NCBI RefSeq assembly: GCF_000972845.2
Contig: NC_040032.1
Coordinates: 3,987,073-4,051,072 of the forward strand
Source of the DNA: Larimichthys crocea
Lineage: Eukaryota; Chordata; Actinopteri; Sciaenidae
DNA length: 64,000 nt
Direction of reading: 5' to 3'
Part shown: positions 47,320-59,600 of the stretch, one piece after another
Layout: the number at the start of each line of letters is the position of its first letter
Position numbering within the stretch: the first letter of the stretch is position 1
Translations under genes and position numbers: made by a program
The notes under the pieces: generated by a model
What the model saw: the letters and a program-made list of their open reading frames with translations, nothing else
Told to the model about the DNA's origin: nothing
Databases searched by the model: none

Positions 47320-47374
47320 ATGATGATGAAAATGCCGTTGAGGGTCCATCTCATTGCAGCTCTGCTAATATGCT
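47320..47374 (+). CDS. lect2-like: LECT2-like gene, coding exon 1 (signal peptide)
   Basis: The exon encodes the start of the signal peptide, MMMKMPLRVHLIAALLIC, plus one base of the next codon, and ends at a strong donor (GTAAGT). Four Met codons lie in the first five positions; the first is taken as the start, but the choice hardly changes the product. A good acceptor (pyrimidine tract then TAG at 47300-47302) lies 17 bases upstream of the ATG, which suggests an upstream non-coding exon that I cannot place. Confidence 0.85.
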
Positions 47375-50300
47375 GTAAGTAGCCTTCTTACACTTACCAT
47401 GAATCATAACCTATCCATGCACATAGTATTCCTGGTCTATTGATGTACGGTAACTGTATCATATTGACCAACCAAACACAAACACAGAGACACATGCACA
47501 ACATGTCTACACACAACCACGTACTATAATCATGCATGCGGAGACACACTCATGTTTAGTACACACAGTAATTTGACATTCCATTGTACACTAATAACAA
47601 TCCTATTATAGAAACAATAAATGGTGTCGAAATATCTGCATGCCCCTGGAGATTACCATGAACTGAGACCTATTAGCAGACTGTAAACTCCTGTAAACAT
47701 AAACCTTGGGGGGTTCGGGCCTATTGCTGGAGTTACTGTGTGTTGGCGCAAGTGGATGAGACATTTAAAGCATGATTGAATGCTTAATGCAACATTGCAT
47801 AATTGCATCTAACTGCAAAGCTTAAGGCACACTCTGACTGTGAGGGGCTGTTGAGCTAAATGAAAATGAGAGAGCCATTTTGTTGTGTAGCTATATAATG
47901 ATCCACACACACAGTGGACGCAACTCTCAATCTGCAATTGAATGTGAGGCACCAAGAAGTCTGTATGTGAAGTATGTTGGTTGCCCTTTGCATTTAAGCA
48001 ACAATAAGGCCCCAGTTTCAGAGTGCAAATATGAACAGTTGTATATGTGTATTTGTTATGATTATATTACTTATGATCAAAAAGTCGTGGGTTGACAGCT
48101 TTGATAACAGCCAAACTTCAGTTAAGTCCAACAACACAAGACGTGGCAGCCAGCTAATGTTACTTACTTATCCAACAGCAAGAAGCCCAGGTTGGTGACT
48201 GTCTTTGAACCTTTGATGTCACAAAACTAAACTAAAAAGTCAGTCAGAGACTGAGACTCTTGTCCAGTTGCTTCTTGCTCGGTCACGCTCTCCTTTTCTC
48301 TTATCTTCCTCCATCAATGTCCCCTCGGTCTTTACACCTCTGGCATTACGTCCATAGAGGCTGCCAAACCTGGTTACATAGACCACTAGCCCAGCTTGGC
48401 TCCACTCCCAGTCTGCATCCCCTGAACAACTCCTCCGGTCCTCCAAGCTCACAGTCCGGGCATCCAGGCTAACAAATTGTGCTGACATTAGCTAACAGCA
48501 GCTATAGTTCGCTGCAGTTTACTTTACTGTCCCCCAGGAAACTCTGTCAGTTTCCGATATTTGAGGCAGCCAGAGGACATCAGAGAGAATACAGAGGCTA
48601 TTCTTCCATAAAATATGCAGTTTCGCCAGAATCTGAAAACCTTTGGTTTGTTTGTGCTAGTGCACAAACTTACAGTACAGAGTATGAAATAACAGGTTTG
48701 ATTATTCCTCCTCTGTAAGTCGCTTTGGATAAAAGCGTCTGCTAAATGCAATGTAATGTAATGTAATGTAAAATGATTTTAAACCTGTTATTTTATGGTA
48801 GAAAAGTTAGAGTGTTGCTTTAATCTGCTCTGTCGTTGACTCATTGACTGAGTATGCCTCATTTTGTTACTTAAAAGATTAAAAGTAACAGTTTGAAACA
48901 ATGCATCTGCCATATACCCTCTTTTTCCAGGTTTTTTTTTCTATTCCTTGTCACTAACTATACCCAAATTCTTCCTTTGTGTCTTCTATATATATATTCA
49001 CCAGAACACTCAAACAATGCCCAACTCCTTTTTTTAAAGCTATTCAACTTTGTCTAAAGAAACAGAAATGCTCTAACAGCCACTTTAAAACAATTTGACT
49101 TAAACAAACAAACAAAAACAAAAAATAGAATGTTCACATAATGAAACATTATGTGAACATTTGATAAGCATTACAATCCCTTTGCATAATTCATTGTGCC
49201 TCAAAATGCCCCATAATATAGCAACCACCGAGCAGTGTACTAAAAATCATTTAGCAAAACACCAGTAAAACTCTACTCCGACCAAATATTGCTCAGGCAA
49301 CAGGCACACTTACATTTTTGTCATTTTTGAAAATTGCTTTTCCATGCCACAGCCAGCTATCCTGCTCGACTTTCTCTCTGTCATTAAGGCCTTCTACTGA
49401 TAAGCAGCTTCTTTCAATCACTGAGCCCAGCATGTGTTCCTGTGCCAGGGCTGCATGATTGAAATATTTTTTGAGGTTAATAAAGTTAATGAAGATCAAA
49501 GACTCATGTCTGGGCAGGATAATTAGTATTCTGTCAGAACGGAAACACACCATGAATAACTGAACTATGACTCTGTCTGTCTATATGGACAAGTAACACA
49601 ATTCTCAACAAGTGTTCCCAGGTGGTGAGCTAAGACATACCTAGAGACTCGCGTCTAACAAAAGTACTTCAAAAACATGATCAAAATCAAGTTCTATGAA
49701 CTCATTCAAGTTTTTTTCTATTAGCATCCATCAACTGTTAATGTCTCAAAGGTGTGCTTTTTAGCATTCTCTGTAACATTACAGAATTTTTGTGGTACTT
49801 TATAGCAATCAGGAGTTAAGTGTGACTTAGAAATGTATTCAATTTGCTTCAGGATCAGAAAGTTTAATTAACTGAGTAGTAATTTAGTTTCCTTTCTTTT
49901 TGATCATGTGAATGACGTGTGATACGGTGAACGGTCTTGCAGTAAATCCTACCTTAAAATATACCTTGATGTTAGAATGTTTATTTTTTTGGACTTTTTT
50001 CAACAGGTGTTGATTCAACTACTGTATATCATCATTTTGGAGGCTACAGTGTGTGGTGCTGTTGAATTGTACTGCATTATATTGACAGGTGTTTCAATTA
50101 TTTGGTCCACTCTATTTATATCAGTGACGTTGGAATAAGACTGTGTATGATGCATGATGCATGATGCAACAACAAACATCTGTATGATGCAACATAGTTC
50201 AGCAGAACCACAAACTACAAACACAATTGAATGTACAGTCATTTGAGTACAGAGAGTAAAATCATTTCCAAAACTCCCAAACTGAAGGTAACTGTACCCT

Positions 50301-53300
50301 TCATCTCTTTTCAAGACGTTCTGTTAATTTGTGCTTTGGAGCATGAAGGAGGGAAAGGTGAAGAATTGCAAAGCCCCGAAAAGGATGTTGGCAACAGCAT
50401 CAAGGTGAGAAGAAATGACACAACGGCAAATGATGGGAAACCTAAGGCTATAACTCCAAGAAAGAAGGTCAAGAAGACTGGAAGTAAAAAAGCTTCAGTG
50501 GGATCAAGAAGTGACATCAGCTGCACCAAACTGGGAGGCATCTGCCAGCCTAGCCGATACATCTGCCAAGGCAGATACTTAAAAGACAAGTGTTCGGGTG
50601 CGAAGACGCGGCAGTGTTGTATGCCAGGTATTGTGACACAGTTACACATGAATGCACACATATGCAAACATTACAAAGGCTTAGTCAAGGTGAGAAATCT
50701 CCAGCACATGCTCTACTTCAGACACACAAATATCTGATTTTTTATTTTTTTTTTTTTTGCCAAATAGGGATTAAAGGATTGTGTACTGCTTTTTTCTGTC
50801 AGAGTCATGGAAATGTGGTATTGTGGGTGTGAGTTTATATCAATGTCTGACACCACTGATATAAAAAAAAACATGAATACATGACATTTGAATAGTGTAA
50901 TTTTTGCTGCAGTTTGGCTTATTTCCACATGAATGGTACATGAGATGACTCAGGCTTTGTGGATGTGTGATTTTTATGCTTGGCTACTATTGGTTTGACA
51001 TACTTTTGACTGACTTTGTAGTTGGAGCCTGGAACATCCTTTGTGCTGGACACCACAACAACAGAGTGAGGGCGTGTGATGTGCATGGCTGTGGAGCTTT
51101 CAACTCCAGAAGGTGATTCTTCCTGGTCTTATTTTATGCTTAAACCTCAAGATGATTTATGCTTCTATACAGATGAGTGGATAATGGTTAATACTCTAAA
51201 CCTTCATCTTTCATCCATTTGTTCCTTTTCCCCACACCCATATCATTTCCTGACCAGGCTTTGACTGCATGTCAACCATATGTGTGACACTATTTCTGAC
51301 TTTGAACATCATATACCTTTATTACCTTATATATTAGGAGGCACATGAGGAAATCTTTGTCTCCTTTACAATGGCAGAGTGCTCCTACCCTCCTAGTGTT
51401 TGATACTTTAAATTAGGGTCTGTAGCAAATATGAACTCAATGAATAGTTTCATGTATTAAAACTTCATGGGTGGAATTGAGAATTTTTGACTGGGGTCCC
51501 CCATGAACAAAACATTTTTCAAACAAAAAATGAAACGTCAACGTTGATTGACAAAGTCAAAAAATAAATGATAGCATAAGCACCTGTGAAATACATGAGC
51601 TATACCTCTAGGGTCTGTGGATACCCCAGTTGATTGATCAAGCTGTTCTGAAGACATGATGACAGCTCCACATCACAGAGAAAATTAATTAAGGATTTTA
51701 ATTTTAAGAATCATTTACTGTAAGGTGATGCCATTGCAAGGCACAGCTCACTTTTACCTACCAGATCTATTATCAGCCTATACTGAGGACAAGAAACTCC
51801 ATTGTTTTATAGATGATTCCTCTGGGTGGAGGTCCTTGCAGAGAAGTACTAGCCAGACAGTGTTGAAATATGACTAATTGAAAGAGGCCATCTCTTATGT
51901 TTAATTCCAATCTTATCTGTCATTTCTCTTACAGAGTTAATGGCCTACATAAAGCTGTGGACTTGGTGTGTGATGACTATGGCATTGTCAACACTCCATT
52001 CTCAGGATCTCTGGCGGGTCCAGTGAGTCGGAAAGACCCTGCTGGGAATCAGTATGATGGGGTCAAACTTCTTAATGATGGTAAGGAGGACAAAATGTCA
52101 ATACAATACTTGAAAGTGAGTGCAGCAGGGAAATAACTATTTAATCAGTATTTAAAATGATAGAATCCAGATCTTCAAAGTGCTATTTCAACCAACACTG
52201 ACATATAAACTAATGTTAAAGTCAGTACTTTTGAGGACATCTGTCTATTAAATAAAAGAAAAGTAAACAGTTTAGAGTCTACAGCTACATGTAGCAGCAC
52301 TGTGAGACTGTAATACTCATTGTGAGGAAGGATTGGTTGGATAAACCACGATGGTGCTAGATAAAAAGTCACGGGGTCATGAAAGCTCCCAAAGACCATA
52401 AATGCCTGCAACAGTTCTCAAGACATTTCACTAAATCATAGATTTGAATCTGTTGGTGGTACTAAAGGAGAAGTCAGGGGATCGCCAATGGCAGTAGGAG
52501 TTAGTCTCAGGGAACCATGAACGTTTAGACCAATAATTTGTCTGAGCTATGCTCCATGGGTGTCATTCCAAATGTCATGATAACCCATAGCTGTTGAGAT
52601 ATTGTAAAAGTTGATTGACACATTAGCCCTGTTTTCTGGAAATTATATTTAGATGAATACTGCTATTTCTATAACAAAAAAAAGCAACTGCAGGTTTTGT
52701 TAAACCACTTTAATGTTGTACTATGACCCCTGCAAATAAATTCCTGTAATCTATAGTGTATAGACAATGGCTCGGGCAAAGGCGATTTTAGGTTATTATG
52801 GTGTAGGTGTTAGATGGGGATGAAAGGAAGAAGAAGAGTGATTTAAAGGGATTAGTCATGGTGCTGGAGTTGTGACTCCATAGCTTGACTGTAAGACCGG
52901 GACCCAGCTGCATGTGAAACGCCATCAAAGGCTGTTCGTGAGTAATGACCCCCCACTAAGGGCCATCATTACAGAACAAAGCAATGCCTCAGCGTTTGTG
53001 TGTTTGTGCCTGGCAGAGGAATGGACACATGCCTTTGCAATGTACAGTATGTGTGTGTGTGTCTGTACATGTACTTGTGCGAGTGAGTGTATTTTGAGAG
53101 CATCCTGCGTTGATAAGACACTGCAGTGACGGATAAACATCATTAGTCCTCATTCTGCCTCTACCCCTAATTGAACTGTATTATCAGAAGAACACATGTA
53201 CTGTCAGCTCCTTTCATCTCAGGGTAAAGCACAGGCATGATTAGACATCACAGAGACACATTACCTCGCCACGATATCCACATTAATCCTGAGACACTCA

Positions 53301-54021
53301 TCATTAGGAGCTGGATTTAATGATGGTTTTGAGTTGTAGACTAGCCTACTTTGGGGTTGTTTGTTTCTACTTTGGCATCTTGCTTGTTTTTGTCTACAGA
53401 ATGGTGAAAAAGAGTAAGACAGGGTCTTAACTCTGTTTCATTTATCTATTTGAGAGGTACTATCTATTTGCTACTGTAATGTTTCTTCTTATTTTACACT
53501 ACCTTTAACCTGTGGTGTGGAAACACCTTTCTAATGGTGTGCACTCTTTCCAGAAACCGGAGACAGAAAAAATCTGATTAATTTCTCACAAATTTACCCC
53601 ATGAAGGTAAAGTGATAAGACCAACCTGACTTCACAGGTATAAATTAGCCTAAACTCCCAAAAATATTCCTAGTGGTGTCAGTAAGCAGAATGGAGTCAC
53701 TCTTGGCATTTGCACAATCTCTTTCTATTCCCAAAAATGTTATGAATACCCCTGAATTATTGAAGGAAATAAAAACCATTCAACAGGTCCATACAGGAAA
53801 TAAAAGGGGATTTATATCCTCCAAACTATATTTTTTTCTTTCTGTGTCACCCAGTGCACTGTGTTAAGATCTTCAACATCCGTCCTTATCGTTACATCGG
53901 CCCGGTGTCTCAGGGAGAAGCTTTGGGTTATCTGTTGCCACTGCAGGACCGCTTCTCTGGCATCACATCACACCTGGAGCTGCAAATGTGTGACGGCACT
54001 GACCCTTCACCTTTTATATAA
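47320..54021 (+). CDS. lect2-like: LECT2-like secreted protein with N-terminal beta-defensin-like module (five coding exons)
   Basis: Spliced model: 47320-47374, 50316-50627, 51022-51112, 51935-52080, 53855-54021, all with GT-AG junctions and phases 1,1,2,1, giving 256 residues. Residues 1 to about 26 form a signal peptide (hydrophobic core near 11-26). Residues 32-83 are a hydrophilic, lysine-rich linker. Residues 88-120 carry six cysteines spaced C-x6-C-x6-C-x8-C-x7-CC, close to beta-defensins. Residues 123-256 are a full LECT2 domain, with all six LECT2 cysteines (130, 141, 146, 165, 204, 247) and the HxxxD zinc motif (His158, Asp162). The HxH motif reads His241-Leu-Glu243, so one zinc ligand is changed. 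LECT2 is a secreted liver and leukocyte factor with an M23 metallopeptidase fold; peptidase activity is doubtful in the family and more so here. Known LECT2 proteins are about 150 residues and lack the N-terminal module. The LECT2 assignment is firm; the defensin-like label rests on cysteine pattern only. Confidence 0.9.
48712..48770 (+). mobile_element. 3' tail of a V-SINE/DANA-type element in LECT2-like intron 1
   Basis: GTAAGTCGCTTTGGATAAAA + GCGTCTGCTAAATG followed by AATGT repeats. This conserved 3' tail is shared by fish V-SINEs and related LINEs. No tRNA-like head is seen upstream, so the copy is 5'-truncated or the head is unrecognisable. Confidence 0.8.
49129..49161. other. Perfect 15-bp palindrome with 3-nt loop in LECT2-like intron 1
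   Basis: AATGTTCACATAATG, AAA, CATTATGTGAACATT: an exact inverted repeat. The GTTCACATAATG/CATTATGTGAAC half-sites give a symmetrical element that could bind a dimeric factor or mark a short inversion duplication. Confidence 0.8.
50316..50627 (+). CDS. lect2-like: LECT2-like gene, coding exon 2 (basic linker and defensin-like module)
   Basis: A 312-nt exon, phase 1 at both ends, so it can be included or skipped without a frameshift. It begins after a TCTTTTCAAG acceptor and ends at a GTATTG donor. Its first codon, completed by the last base of exon 1, continues a hydrophobic run (VLLICAL), so the signal peptide crosses the junction naturally. The rest encodes an acidic then strongly basic stretch (four KK pairs, residues 68-77) and the six-cysteine module ending QCCMP. 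An internal donor-like CAAG/GTGAGA at 50404 is not in phase with any downstream acceptor and is judged to be coding. Confidence 0.8.
51022..51112 (+). CDS. lect2-like: LECT2-like gene, coding exon 3 (start of LECT2 domain)
   Basis: Encodes residues 123-153, including AWNILCAGHHNNRVRACD and HGCG, matching the WANICAG...R.CD.HGCG start of vertebrate LECT2. Cys130, Cys141 and Cys146 are here; Cys141-Cys146 corresponds to a short disulphide loop of LECT2. The acceptor is TTTGTAG and the donor AG/GTGATT; it ends in phase 2. Confidence 0.9.
51935..52080 (+). CDS. lect2-like: LECT2-like gene, coding exon 4 (M23 fold, HxxxD zinc motif)
   Basis: Encodes residues 153-201 with LHKAVDLVC, the counterpart of LECT2 HQGVDVLC; His158 and Asp162 align with two of the three zinc ligands. 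It continues with TPFSG (LECT2 APFTG) and ends in YDGVKLLND before a GTAAGG donor. Acceptor CTCTTACAG. The loop between PFSG and DGVKL has the same general length as in LECT2. Confidence 0.9.
53855..54021 (+). CDS. lect2-like: LECT2-like gene, terminal coding exon 5
   Basis: Encodes residues 202-256: HCVKIFNIRP (LECT2 FCVKMFYIKP), QGEALGYLLPLQ (KGEKLGTLLPLQ) and GITSHLELQMCDGTDPSPF (GIQSHVHIENCDSSDP). The stop is TAA at 54019-54021. The second His of the M23 HxH motif is Glu243 (codon GAG), while the preceding His241 is kept. Acceptor GTCACCCAG. AATAAA at 54664-54669 is a plausible polyadenylation signal. Confidence 0.9.
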
Positions 54022-54690: not shown

Positions 54691-55221
54691 TTAAGTGTTT
54701 TTTATTTCCCATGAGTGGATGAAAATAAAATGTATATCATGAATTGGGGAGTCACATATTTTTATTACTTGTGATGAAAAAAACAAAAAAACAAAAACAA
54801 ATCTGATCACAGACATTATCTCCTTAATTCAGTAATCGTTTCATATTCAGCTGCCTTTCTGCATGAGATGTACCTTCTCAGACAGAAGAAAACTGCCACA
54901 TATACAGTGTTCATGTAATGATTTTAAGACACCAACAGATGGAGCTGTCTTGCAACAAAATTGTCAGTCAAATCTGAATCTTGGCAATTGGTCTTTTAAA
55001 ATCTGCAAATAAGACATGTTACAAGTATCAACATCTTTATACTTAGGGAGCAGAATTAGCACATAGCAACACACTTTAACACAACCACATATTTCACAAT
55101 CAGAGACATTAACCACATAAAGACAGAAGGGTATCATGTGATGCAGTCTTTGCAAGTCAACCTCAGCAAGTATGAGTGCTGGCGGCCCTGCTCCTCCTGG
55201 CCCTTTCTCTCTCTCTCTCTC

Positions 55222-55267
<46 letters not shown>

Positions 55268-56139
55268 TCTCTCTCTTCCTGTCCTTTCTCCCCTTCTTGT
55301 GCCCGTTGCTTACTTTTTTGCTTTTAAAGTTGATGGTGGGGTGCAACAAACAAAACAAAACAAAAATAGATCAGGTCACTTGGAACTGGGTTCTTAGGTT
55401 CATATGTATTATATGGCCCCAAACCACAAATGTGCCTTAAATGGCTTTACAGATCTGTGTAGTATTGTGTAGTACTGTATCAACCAGGGTTGTGTGGAAA
55501 GAACTAGCTCAATTCAATTGAAATATTATATCTCTATTTAATTAATACATTCGCTACCTTAACGTAACTTAATGTAGACTGAAATAGCCAGCTGCATAGG
55601 TTAAACTATCTAATAGCTGTATATATATGGATGAATGGTTGAACAAGTTAACTATAATTTAGTTATTCTGTTGATTAAAGTATTGGCTAAATAGTTGACA
55701 TTAGCTTGGGTTCAAAGTGATGTTAGCTTTAAAAAAAATACTCAAAACTTTTTTTTTAAATGAGCTGAAAGTGATCAAATGAAACATGTCCAGCTAATGT
55801 TACTTCTACTCCAGATGTTAACATTAGGTCAAAAGTGACCTGACAGTTCAACAACTCAACATGACAGTTCAATTGTATGAAAAACCATTTAACATGATCC
55901 ACTTGTTTATGTCAGGGAGTTGATTAGTTCATATGCTGTTGATTACTTATACATAAACACATTTTGAACATAAAGGATGGTGTCACTGAAGTTCATCTGA
56001 GAGGGCAGCAAATAAGTGTCAGTGTAGCCTATATATAGCTTTATATATGCTCTATAGTTTAACAGTATTCAAGTGAACTTTTTAATTATTGACATGGATG
56101 AAAATATTCACAGCCGGTAAGGTTGATACAGCTTTAAGT
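54691..56139. other. Spacer between the LECT2-like gene and sh3pxd2b
   Basis: About 1.4 kb of AT-rich DNA with the (CT)n tract; no coding sequence seen. Confidence 0.6.
55203..55295. repeat. (CT)n polypyrimidine microsatellite
   Basis: About 90 bases of imperfect CT repeats between the LECT2-like gene and sh3pxd2b. Mirror symmetry makes it a candidate for triplex (H-DNA) structure. Confidence 0.9.
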
Positions 56140-56648: not shown

Positions 56649-59600
56649 GTAAGACCCGCTTTATTTTCATAACAGCGACGCTTTTGTCGCTCCAAGTGAG
56701 CAACAGATCGAGGTTGTATTGCAGTCCTGCTGCCTTTCCTGTCGGGTAAAGTAAAAACAAAGAGAGTGTCAAATTACAGTTTGGCAAGCCAGTGGAAATG
56801 CTTGCTCAGACTCTTTAGACCAATCCTGATTTTATTATGAAGACCGTTAGCACCACAGCGAATAGAGAAACAGTTTTATTAGACCCCCAACAACCCATAC
56901 ACACCGTTTAAAGAGGAGACACTAACTTTGATACTCCCAAAGAGTTCTCATGTCTTGTTTTCAGGTTGGAGCAGACTGAAGAAATGAATGTTGGATTTAT
57001 CAGTTTTGTTTGAATCTGAGATTTTAGTTTTTTTCCCCCCTCCTTGCAGTTAGTGTTGTTATTTAGGCATTAAATATCTTCTAAAGTGGATTTAGCTCAT
57101 GTGACTTGTGACTCTGCATACCTTCAATTGACTATCATCCATTCACTATCACATGTATGTATGTGAATATAAGACATTGTATTATCACTAAATGAGTCTG
57201 CGGTCTCATATGTCTGCTGCCACGTGTGGGTAATTATAGAGGAAAGGTCCCTGGAAAACAACTTTTAATAGGCAAATCAATCCAGTCCACAAACCATCCA
57301 GAGTAATCCCAACGAGGATAAGAGTTCAAATGGAGCGTGTCAGCTTTGTCACGCCTCAGGTTCTCCAATTTACTCAGGAAAACATACTGATAGGCGCCGG
57401 CAAGCAGGAAGTATAACTAACAGAGTTTCTAAGGTGAACACAAGGCAATGGTTGAACAAAGAAGAGGCTAAAAACATTATGTACCTAATGACATGGCATT
57501 TGTATTTTTCATTTAGTCCAGCTTATGGCTGTGTTTTAATGAAGCGTGTGCACTTTTAGTTTGATTTAGTGACAGTTCAGCAGCTCAAGGTGATATAAGT
57601 ATCGAAGGTGATAATATCCTCCAAGAGATACCAGGTGATAATGCTGTCATTATCTCATTAAGTCTCATCACTGTGTGTGGCGCAGGAGAAAAAGGGGACA
57701 GACGAGGATTCAACGTGTGGATATTTTTCTTGTCTCGACTCATTTCCCACTGCTACTGGAAAGCTCGTGTGGGAGACAAGAATGTCAGAAAGACAAAGAG
57801 CCATTGCTCAATTTTTTTCTGCAATTTCTAAACAATGGAGCTTTCATCGTTCTTGTCTATAAGCGAGTGGCGGGGGATGCATGTGGGTGAATTTGTACCG
57901 CAAAAGTGCACACAGTCAGTTTTAACACGTATGACATCATAGGATATAGAGGGCCAACAGTCAGAGCCAAGGCCTTAGCAGGTGTTCGTGTTAGTTCAGT
58001 GTACATGGCGTGTGCCAGTGTGTGCGCTCGTATGCATATGTTGGTTTGCATCCGTATTTGTGTGAAAATGACGCCTGGGGTTGAGGGACCAACGGACCTT
58101 ATACCGCTGTGAGTGTTAGTGGTCAAGGACATAGAGTTCTCGAGGTCCTGTGTCTTCTCCATCTGTCTGTGTGCTCTCTAGTGCAGCCCATGTTGTGTTG
58201 TGCCTCTGGTACTCTCTTTTAACTCTATATGCAGAAAATCTTCCACAGCCACTGAGGCGTGGTTAAGAGTATAACAATCAGCTTAAACCTCCTCTGCTCA
58301 TCAGAGTTGAACCTATCATATAAAAAGGAAAAGAAAAGACTTTCCATGAGACTTGCATATATTTTATTAGATTTTATAGCTTTCCCTTTCTTTCTCAGAG
58401 CTATGGCTTCAGCCTTATTTACCAGGGTTGATGTTGGATTTGTAGTCTAGAGAGCCTATTTGTCTTAATTGTTTTTCATTGACCACTGCAAGGGGAAAAA
58501 ACTCATCATACACTTTTTTGCGTATAAGGTTTCTCCGTCTTTGTTGCTGAGCGTTTAGTACACTCACACACTGAATAAATATCCTGTATGAATGAAGGCA
58601 TCCTCCCTGCTGGCCAATAATACATCCTGTAGTTGGTCCGTCCATGGCCATATCTGACTCAAGTGCTCTGAAACAGACAACGAGGCCAGAGAAGGTCTGG
58701 GACTGGGGCCAGCAGCATTCACCCAGACACAGCAAGCCACCAGGGAGTTTCCAAATCACCTCCCTGCCTCTGCCCTCTTCTCTTCTAGTGAACAACATAA
58801 AGAATGATTTGTATTGGCTCTAGATTGAAAGAATTAGGCTAGATGCTATAATGATAATCATAGAAAGTAATGTTAACTTTAACATTTTAACTTTAATGCC
58901 ACAAATGATACAATGGGAGCAATGGTTTATTGATGTGTTCTAACAGTGTCTGTGGCACTCATGAAAGCATGAATTTACAATGTGACATTTAGGGATGTAA
59001 CGATACATCGTGACACGATTAAAGTCGGTACAAATGCGTGACGACTCGCATCGGTTGACAGAAAAAATGAATCGTGATTCTTGGTGAATGCGAGAGAAGT
59101 AGGATATGTTCTTTTTCGTTTTTTTTAAAATTAGAAATAGGTTACGTTGTGGCTGCACACACACACACACACACACACCTACACACATGCGCAGTAGTGG
59201 TAATCAGCGTCAGGCCTGACTGTACCGTAAATGATACCATAACACAGACCCTCCAGGAATTCACGATGTTGCGATTTGCAACTTCAACGCAACTTCAGTG
59301 AATCCCCGTGAATTCAGGGGTGTTGCAATTTTAACCAATCACCGCAACTTCTCCGCAACTTCCGCGCAGTCTGCCCGGGGGATTAAACTCGGGTCAGGGA
59401 CGGCCGCACGGTGCGGGAGGATCCCCTCATGGGACCTCTCCCCGGCGCTGGCTGGCCCCCGCCGGGCGCATTTCCTCCGAGGTGGTGCGCCGCGACCGGC
59501 TCTGCGTTTACAGCGCCCGGACCTCGTCGTGGACTCTCATTAAAGGGTTAATGAGCTATCATCTTAATTGTTTTTATTTTCATTTAGCTCATACTTCAAG

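Follow-up and report, generated by a model that had tools for sequence, protein, structure and literature searches.

The stretch of DNA analysed here (hereafter the window) comprises 64,000 nucleotides of the forward strand of Larimichthys crocea contig NC_040032.1, and its positions 47320 to 54021 hold a five-exon gene that encodes a basic linker, a six-cysteine module and a LECT2 domain in a single product. This architecture is conserved in many ray-finned fishes, well beyond chance, and we present evidence that the module is quite probably a cysteine-rich repeat (CRR) of the type described from fungal and invertebrate proteins. The features of the gene, in window coordinates, are the following:

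47320..47374, + strand: exon 1, with the start codon and the first part of the predicted signal peptide (residues 1-18 and the first base of codon 19); phase 1 donor
50316..50627, + strand: exon 2, with the end of the predicted signal peptide, the basic linker and the six-cysteine module; 312 nt, symmetric phase 1-1
50333..50521, + strand: basic linker, residues 25-87, poorly conserved; net charge +6 over K/R/D/E
50522..50620, + strand: six-cysteine CRR-type module, residues 88-120, C-x6-C-x6-C-x8-C-x7-CC, the published CRR spacing; net charge +6
51022..51112, + strand: exon 3, start of the LECT2 domain (GAWNILCAG...)
51935..52080, + strand: exon 4, LECT2 domain, with the zinc-ligand equivalents H158 (51948-51950) and D162 (51960-51962)
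53855..54021, + strand: exon 5, C-terminal part of the LECT2 domain and the stop codon
53977..53979, + strand: codon 243 (Glu), equivalent of the human LECT2 zinc ligand His120 (mature numbering)

All four introns are bounded by GT donors and AG acceptors, and joining the five exons yields a 771-nt frame of 256 residues whose one stop is terminal; the product of exon 1 is a 100% tblastn match to residues 1-18 of a related protein (P0001). The cysteines of the module fall at residues 88, 95, 102, 111, 119 and 120. After a gap of three residues (121-123) the LECT2 domain occupies residues 124-256, of which 124-255 match human LECT2 (PDB 5b0h) with an E-value of 4.7e-31. An earlier note on this DNA, made by a model from the letters and their open reading frames, had predicted a six-cysteine module of precisely this spacing and a complete LECT2 domain in one spliced frame, and the open frame, the fitting phases and the LECT2 match bear out this prediction. 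The intron phases are 1, 1, 2 and 1, so that exon 2 is symmetric (1-1), as is classical for extracellular modules spread by exon shuffling. Ordinary LECT2 has 151 residues and four exons both in human and in Nile tilapia (PMC9258709; PMC8174566), as against five coding exons here, and the extra exon therefore seems to lie after the signal exon and ahead of the first exon of LECT2; this exon, with its tail and module, does set the protein apart from ordinary LECT2, as the note had held. In the window protein, the positively charged tail and module (+6 each) precede a near-neutral LECT2 domain, and over 58 members of the family the median net charge is +9 for the tail and +5 for the module. The protein is predicted to be secreted from its hydrophobic N-terminus, as judged by eye.

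A protein search with the 256-residue product, which the note had proposed as a check, recovered 114 relatives (E up to 0.001), the best match being a Larimichthys crocea protein identical at 253 of 256 residues. The named hosts are all ray-finned fishes, namely herrings, tarpon, bonefish, bony-tongues, carps, characins, salmon, cods, many spiny-rayed fishes and the spotted gar, the last being a non-teleost from the Holostei. At least one six-cysteine module is found in 87 of the 114 relatives, with loops of exactly 6-6-8-7 in 79 of the 88 module copies. For alignment, 64 of the 114 were picked for having the module and LECT2 together; among these, mean pairwise identity is 73% in the LECT2 domain and 66% in the module versus 28% in the linker (residues 25-84), indicating that the module has been held while the linker drifted. 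Four members of 246-254 residues (P0003, P0037, P0042 and P0044) lie on contigs of 1362, 905, 983 and 1325 bases, respectively, which are too short for introns like those of the 6.7-kb window gene; they are best read as spliced transcripts, with intronless retrocopies as the alternative.

Several observations on the relatives weigh against the explanation favoured below. There is no module in 27 of the 114 matches, most of which either start just before LECT2 or consist of a late LECT2 exon alone. In P0089 and P0079 the module is cut, and in the former, a predicted isoform X2 from Labeo rohita, a splice that leaves the module midway and joins exon 3 would drop most of it. Likewise, the full-length protein of Semicossyphus pulcher (P0017) has a tyrosine in place of the second module cysteine. 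The absence of exon 2 from some predicted proteins might suggest that it belongs to another transcript and was drawn into this gene by the prediction procedure. We reject such an artefact, to which we assign a negligible probability, given the module in 87 of the relatives and the full-length members on the four short contigs; the frame and the phases also fit.

Certain gene models among the relatives show further peculiarities. P0061, P0070, P0083, P0084 and similar entries, all of 141-161 residues, are predictions without exons 1 and 2 that have odd N-termini just before GAW/AW; these N-termini suggest an alternative start or read-through from the intron before. In P0085 the module and the start of LECT2 are joined to a PX domain (PF00787), which is probably a gene-model fusion. 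The mudskipper Periophthalmus magnuspinnatus (P0074) has two six-cysteine modules before LECT2, at residues 32-64 and 108-140, comparable to the paired repeats of rusticalin (see below).

The note had labelled the module beta-defensin-like, while mentioning as another comparison the GxC...CC modules found in secreted hydrolases of invertebrates and fungi. For beta-defensins the motif given in the literature reads C-X4-8-C-X3-5-C-X9-13-C-X4-7-CC (PMC515299), and with loops of 6-6-8-7 the fish module falls outside it in both loop 2 (6) and loop 3 (8); a classical beta-defensin was rejected on this spacing. The second comparison proves to be the better one, for the spacing is exactly that of the CRR motif, Cx6Cx6-7Cx8Cx7CC, which occurs twice in rusticalin, a protein of ascidian blood cells (PMC6339383). 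A survey of CRRs gathered 382 proteins, of which 374 are from eukaryotes (301 from fungi and 69 from animals), and found a bacterial-wall hydrolase (phage lysozyme, amidase, M15 peptidase and others) in 63 of the 124 proteins with a recognised partner domain; Chordata is one of its animal groups, with members unspecified, and there is no mention of M23, LECT2 or fish in its main text (PMC7379824). The fish module has the corresponding position, being N-terminal to a domain of the bacterial-wall-enzyme type in a protein judged by eye to be secreted.

The published CRR logo shows conserved glycines at positions 10, 21, 26 and 30 and prolines at positions 29 and 31 (PMC7379824). By our own mapping of these positions onto the fish residues, three of the glycines are frequent among 71 distinct modules: G10 (Cys2-2) in 71, G21 (Cys3+2) in 70 and G30 (Cys4+2) in 61, with P31 present in 14. 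Conversely, the glycine at Cys4-2 (G26; 4 of 71) and the proline at Cys4+1 (P29; 3 of 71) are mostly absent, which speaks against a CRR, as do the profile comparisons. For the latter, the CRR sequences were the two repeats of a placozoan lysozyme (PLys) only, and the controls were cysteine-preserving shuffles. Taken singly, the two repeats were equalled by 85/200 and 28/200 shuffles in hhalign and by 216/300 and 16/300 in hmmsearch; taken together in hhalign, they were equalled by 1/60 in local and 5/60 in global mode. The similarity to the placozoan CRRs thus appears weak, at or barely above that of the shuffled controls. Searching Pfam and PDB with the sequences of the PLys repeats yielded nothing of use. 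A CRR-like DNA pattern had no hits in viral contigs or in prokaryote genome contigs, although this pattern demands a CPG form that is rare in fish modules.

The profile comparisons are mixed on another possibility, in which a LECT2 paralogue captured the exon of a genuine but diverged beta-defensin, and the module would be a tethered antimicrobial peptide. In hhalign the fish profile reached a probability of 83% in local and 24% in global mode against a set of five beta-defensins (0/60 shuffles as good in each), and 91% against mouse beta-defensin 8 (mBD8) alone (0/200), mBD8 having been added to the set for looking similar. The GGIC and CC motifs and the positive charge point the same way, as does the structural model of the module of P0027, a helix followed by three strands; that of P0001 has a helix, two strands and a two-residue strand. 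These models are of low to middling confidence (block predicted local distance difference test scores of 59-75), a further caution for the CRR reading. In beta-defensins the disulfides pair 1-5, 2-4 and 3-6. Besides the two deviant loops, a defensin origin is opposed by the makeup of the profile signal, which is mixed and comes mostly from mBD8: with mBD7 and mBD8 removed, the remaining three defensins scored 20% (4/200 shuffles as good), and singly HBD1, HBD2 and BNBD12 were equalled by 14/200, 4/200 and 18/200 shuffles, respectively, with HBD1 no better than shuffles in hmmsearch (234/300). Pfam, searched at E up to 10 with 20 of the 84 distinct module strings, listed no defensin model, although the HMMER filters remove most hits with E above about 0.1; these 20 strings returned four weak families, the best being Toxin_18 (conotoxin) at E 0.067. 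No PDB chain matched the module alone at E up to 10.

Taking both sides together, we regard a true beta-defensin as unlikely and a CRR as quite probable, a preference drawn from spacing and architecture and not from the sequence scores. CRRs have themselves been reported to resemble the beta-defensin fold in HHpred (PMC6339383), so the likeness that prompted the original label may be real in shape, although the module does not fit the published beta-defensin motif. We infer that the resemblance to CRRs reflects common descent rather than convergence.

LECT2 itself is a degenerate version of the bacterial-wall peptidase (M23) fold. The window protein has the homologous domain with this fold, and equivalents of the six LECT2 cysteines are found at residues 130, 141, 146, 165, 204 and 247 and in all 64 aligned members. 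The Foldseek and VIA fold searches covered the LECT2 part only. Peptidase_M23 (PF01551) did not rise above the Pfam cut-off in any of six proteins scanned, a sample that included the window protein and no ordinary LECT2; the gar protein reached 17.3 bits against a cut-off of 28.7, the model was unlisted for the other four, and for the window protein Pfam listed no family at all. In human LECT2, zinc is held by H35, D39 and H120, and the disulfides are C7-C42, C18-C23 and C81-C124 (PMC13385698). The window protein retains H158 and D162 with E243 in the third position, and because of this incomplete ligand set we call the gene a LECT2 paralogue rather than LECT2 itself. The third ligand is replaced in 97 of the 98 relatives with a readable motif, the histidine being kept in the gar (P0077) only.

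The note had also termed the LECT2 part a bacterial-wall-type module, and this holds for the fold; for activity it does not, owing to the incomplete zinc site. An active wall peptidase in which Glu replaces the third zinc histidine is very improbable: a His-Asp-Glu set could in principle hold zinc, and all 64 aligned members retain the first His of the HxH motif, but 19 of the 98 relatives have Lys, Gln, Arg or Ala at position 243 and 9 of the 64 have lost H158. Moreover, human LECT2 with its full zinc site is without peptidase activity (PMC13385698). We rejected an active M23 enzyme on the replaced third ligand and the variable H158, and in the teleosts seen, where the zinc site is incomplete, the LECT2 part is very probably no peptidase.

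The state of the zinc site raises another candidate role for the module, namely that of an intramolecular chaperone or propeptide that would stabilise a zinc-poor LECT2 fold until secretion and then be clipped off. Zinc is considered critical for the stability of human LECT2 (PMC13385698), and the near-universal replacement of a ligand in the fish relatives is compatible with such a need. There is also a precedent: the placozoan lysozyme without its N-terminal CRR domain denatures at 25-35 C, as against 50-60 C for the full form, and this domain is removed on maturation (PMC12855814). Nevertheless, we hold this role to be doubtful. The variable linker precedes the module, and with only residues 121-123 between the module and the LECT2 match there is no obvious cleavage site at that junction; 2 of 58 members have a linker with a furin-type RX[KR]R site, and the gar has the zinc ligand and the module alike.

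The explanation that we favour, and hold to be fairly probable, is that the gene is a ray-finned-fish LECT2 paralogue that has one extra symmetric exon, coding for a basic tail and one CRR, and that its product is probably a secreted, non-enzymatic host-defence factor. The CRR would be a small, cationic, defensin-shaped module locked by disulfides, and the LECT2 part keeps the M23 fold and the six cysteines with an incomplete zinc site in the teleosts seen. Most probably, the cationic tail and CRR would help to bind or disturb bacterial surfaces and would stabilise the protein extracellularly; the LECT2 fold would be the binding and signalling part, acting on a receptor or a surface as in ordinary LECT2. 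Binding to or disruption of bacterial surfaces has been proposed for the rusticalin CRR and not shown (PMC6339383); by analogy the fish CRR may help in the same way, and by analogy with the placozoan lysozyme it may stabilise the fold. Given that LECT2 has an M23 fold, the protein looks like a vertebrate version of a CRR-M23 protein.

A larger scenario, which we offer as decidedly improbable, is that vertebrate LECT2 arose from a CRR-bearing wall peptidase in the style of rusticalin or PLys. The fish gene would then be the ancestral form, the CRR exon having disappeared from ordinary LECT2, and the disulfide-locked CRR of teleosts would have replaced the stabilising role of zinc, leaving the zinc site free to decay.

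CRR proteins have been reported from fungi and, in a patchy distribution, from animals, where the chordate sources include amphioxus and tunicates (PMC6339383; PMC7379824). What appears to be new here is the joining of a CRR-type module to an M23-fold partner in vertebrates; CRR modules and LECT2 are themselves known. We found no description of a CRR or defensin module in a LECT2 protein among the papers listed, and subscription papers and supplements were outside that scope, so the absence is not proven; likewise, we found none under the gene name ch1073-204b8.1, which several members bear. The other database names are LECT2-like, LECT2, myeloid protein 1-like and uncharacterised, and since many members are simply named "LECT2-like", expression studies in fish may confuse two distinct proteins. 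A conserved vertebrate CRR protein with the signalling pseudoenzyme LECT2 as its partner would tie LECT2 to an older antibacterial architecture. The family also offers a naturally occurring test of the zinc site: zinc depletion favours filament formation by human LECT2 (PMC13385698), yet the teleost relatives seen appear to manage without the full site.

Bird mim-1 (myeloid protein 1) has two LECT2 units. Downstream of the fish gene the window carries a TC-rich simple repeat (55206-55290), and in a tblastn search of the window the only sign of a second LECT2 copy was a match of 15 residues (58206-58250; E 0.18). As there is one set of LECT2 exons, a double LECT2 of the mim-1 type was rejected. 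The two proteins are nonetheless alike in being LECT2-related, as mirrored in the "myeloid protein 1-like" names of some fish members. Ordinary LECT2 shares with the fish protein a homologous domain of about 133 residues, the same six cysteines, the M23 fold and predicted secretion. The fish protein differs from it in the extra exon with the basic tail and CRR-type module, the replaced third zinc ligand, its length (256 versus 151 residues) and its five coding exons as opposed to four in human and tilapia. Vertebrate beta-defensins likewise have six cysteines ending in CC, a GGxC motif, a basic character and a similar predicted order of helix and strands, whereas the fish module departs from their motif in two loop lengths and is part of a larger protein. 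The placozoan g-type lysozyme PLys also places CRRs before a peptidoglycan-related domain; unlike the fish protein, it has two CRRs, weakly similar in sequence to the fish module, and an active GH23 lysozyme, and it loses the CRR domain on maturation. Rusticalin and rusticalin-like proteins are known from ascidians, other tunicates, amphioxus, coral and Trichoplax (PMC6339383). Like the fish protein, rusticalin is predicted to be secreted and has N-terminal CRRs before a domain of the bacterial-wall peptidase type, and the Styela rusticalin is similarly without part of its active site.

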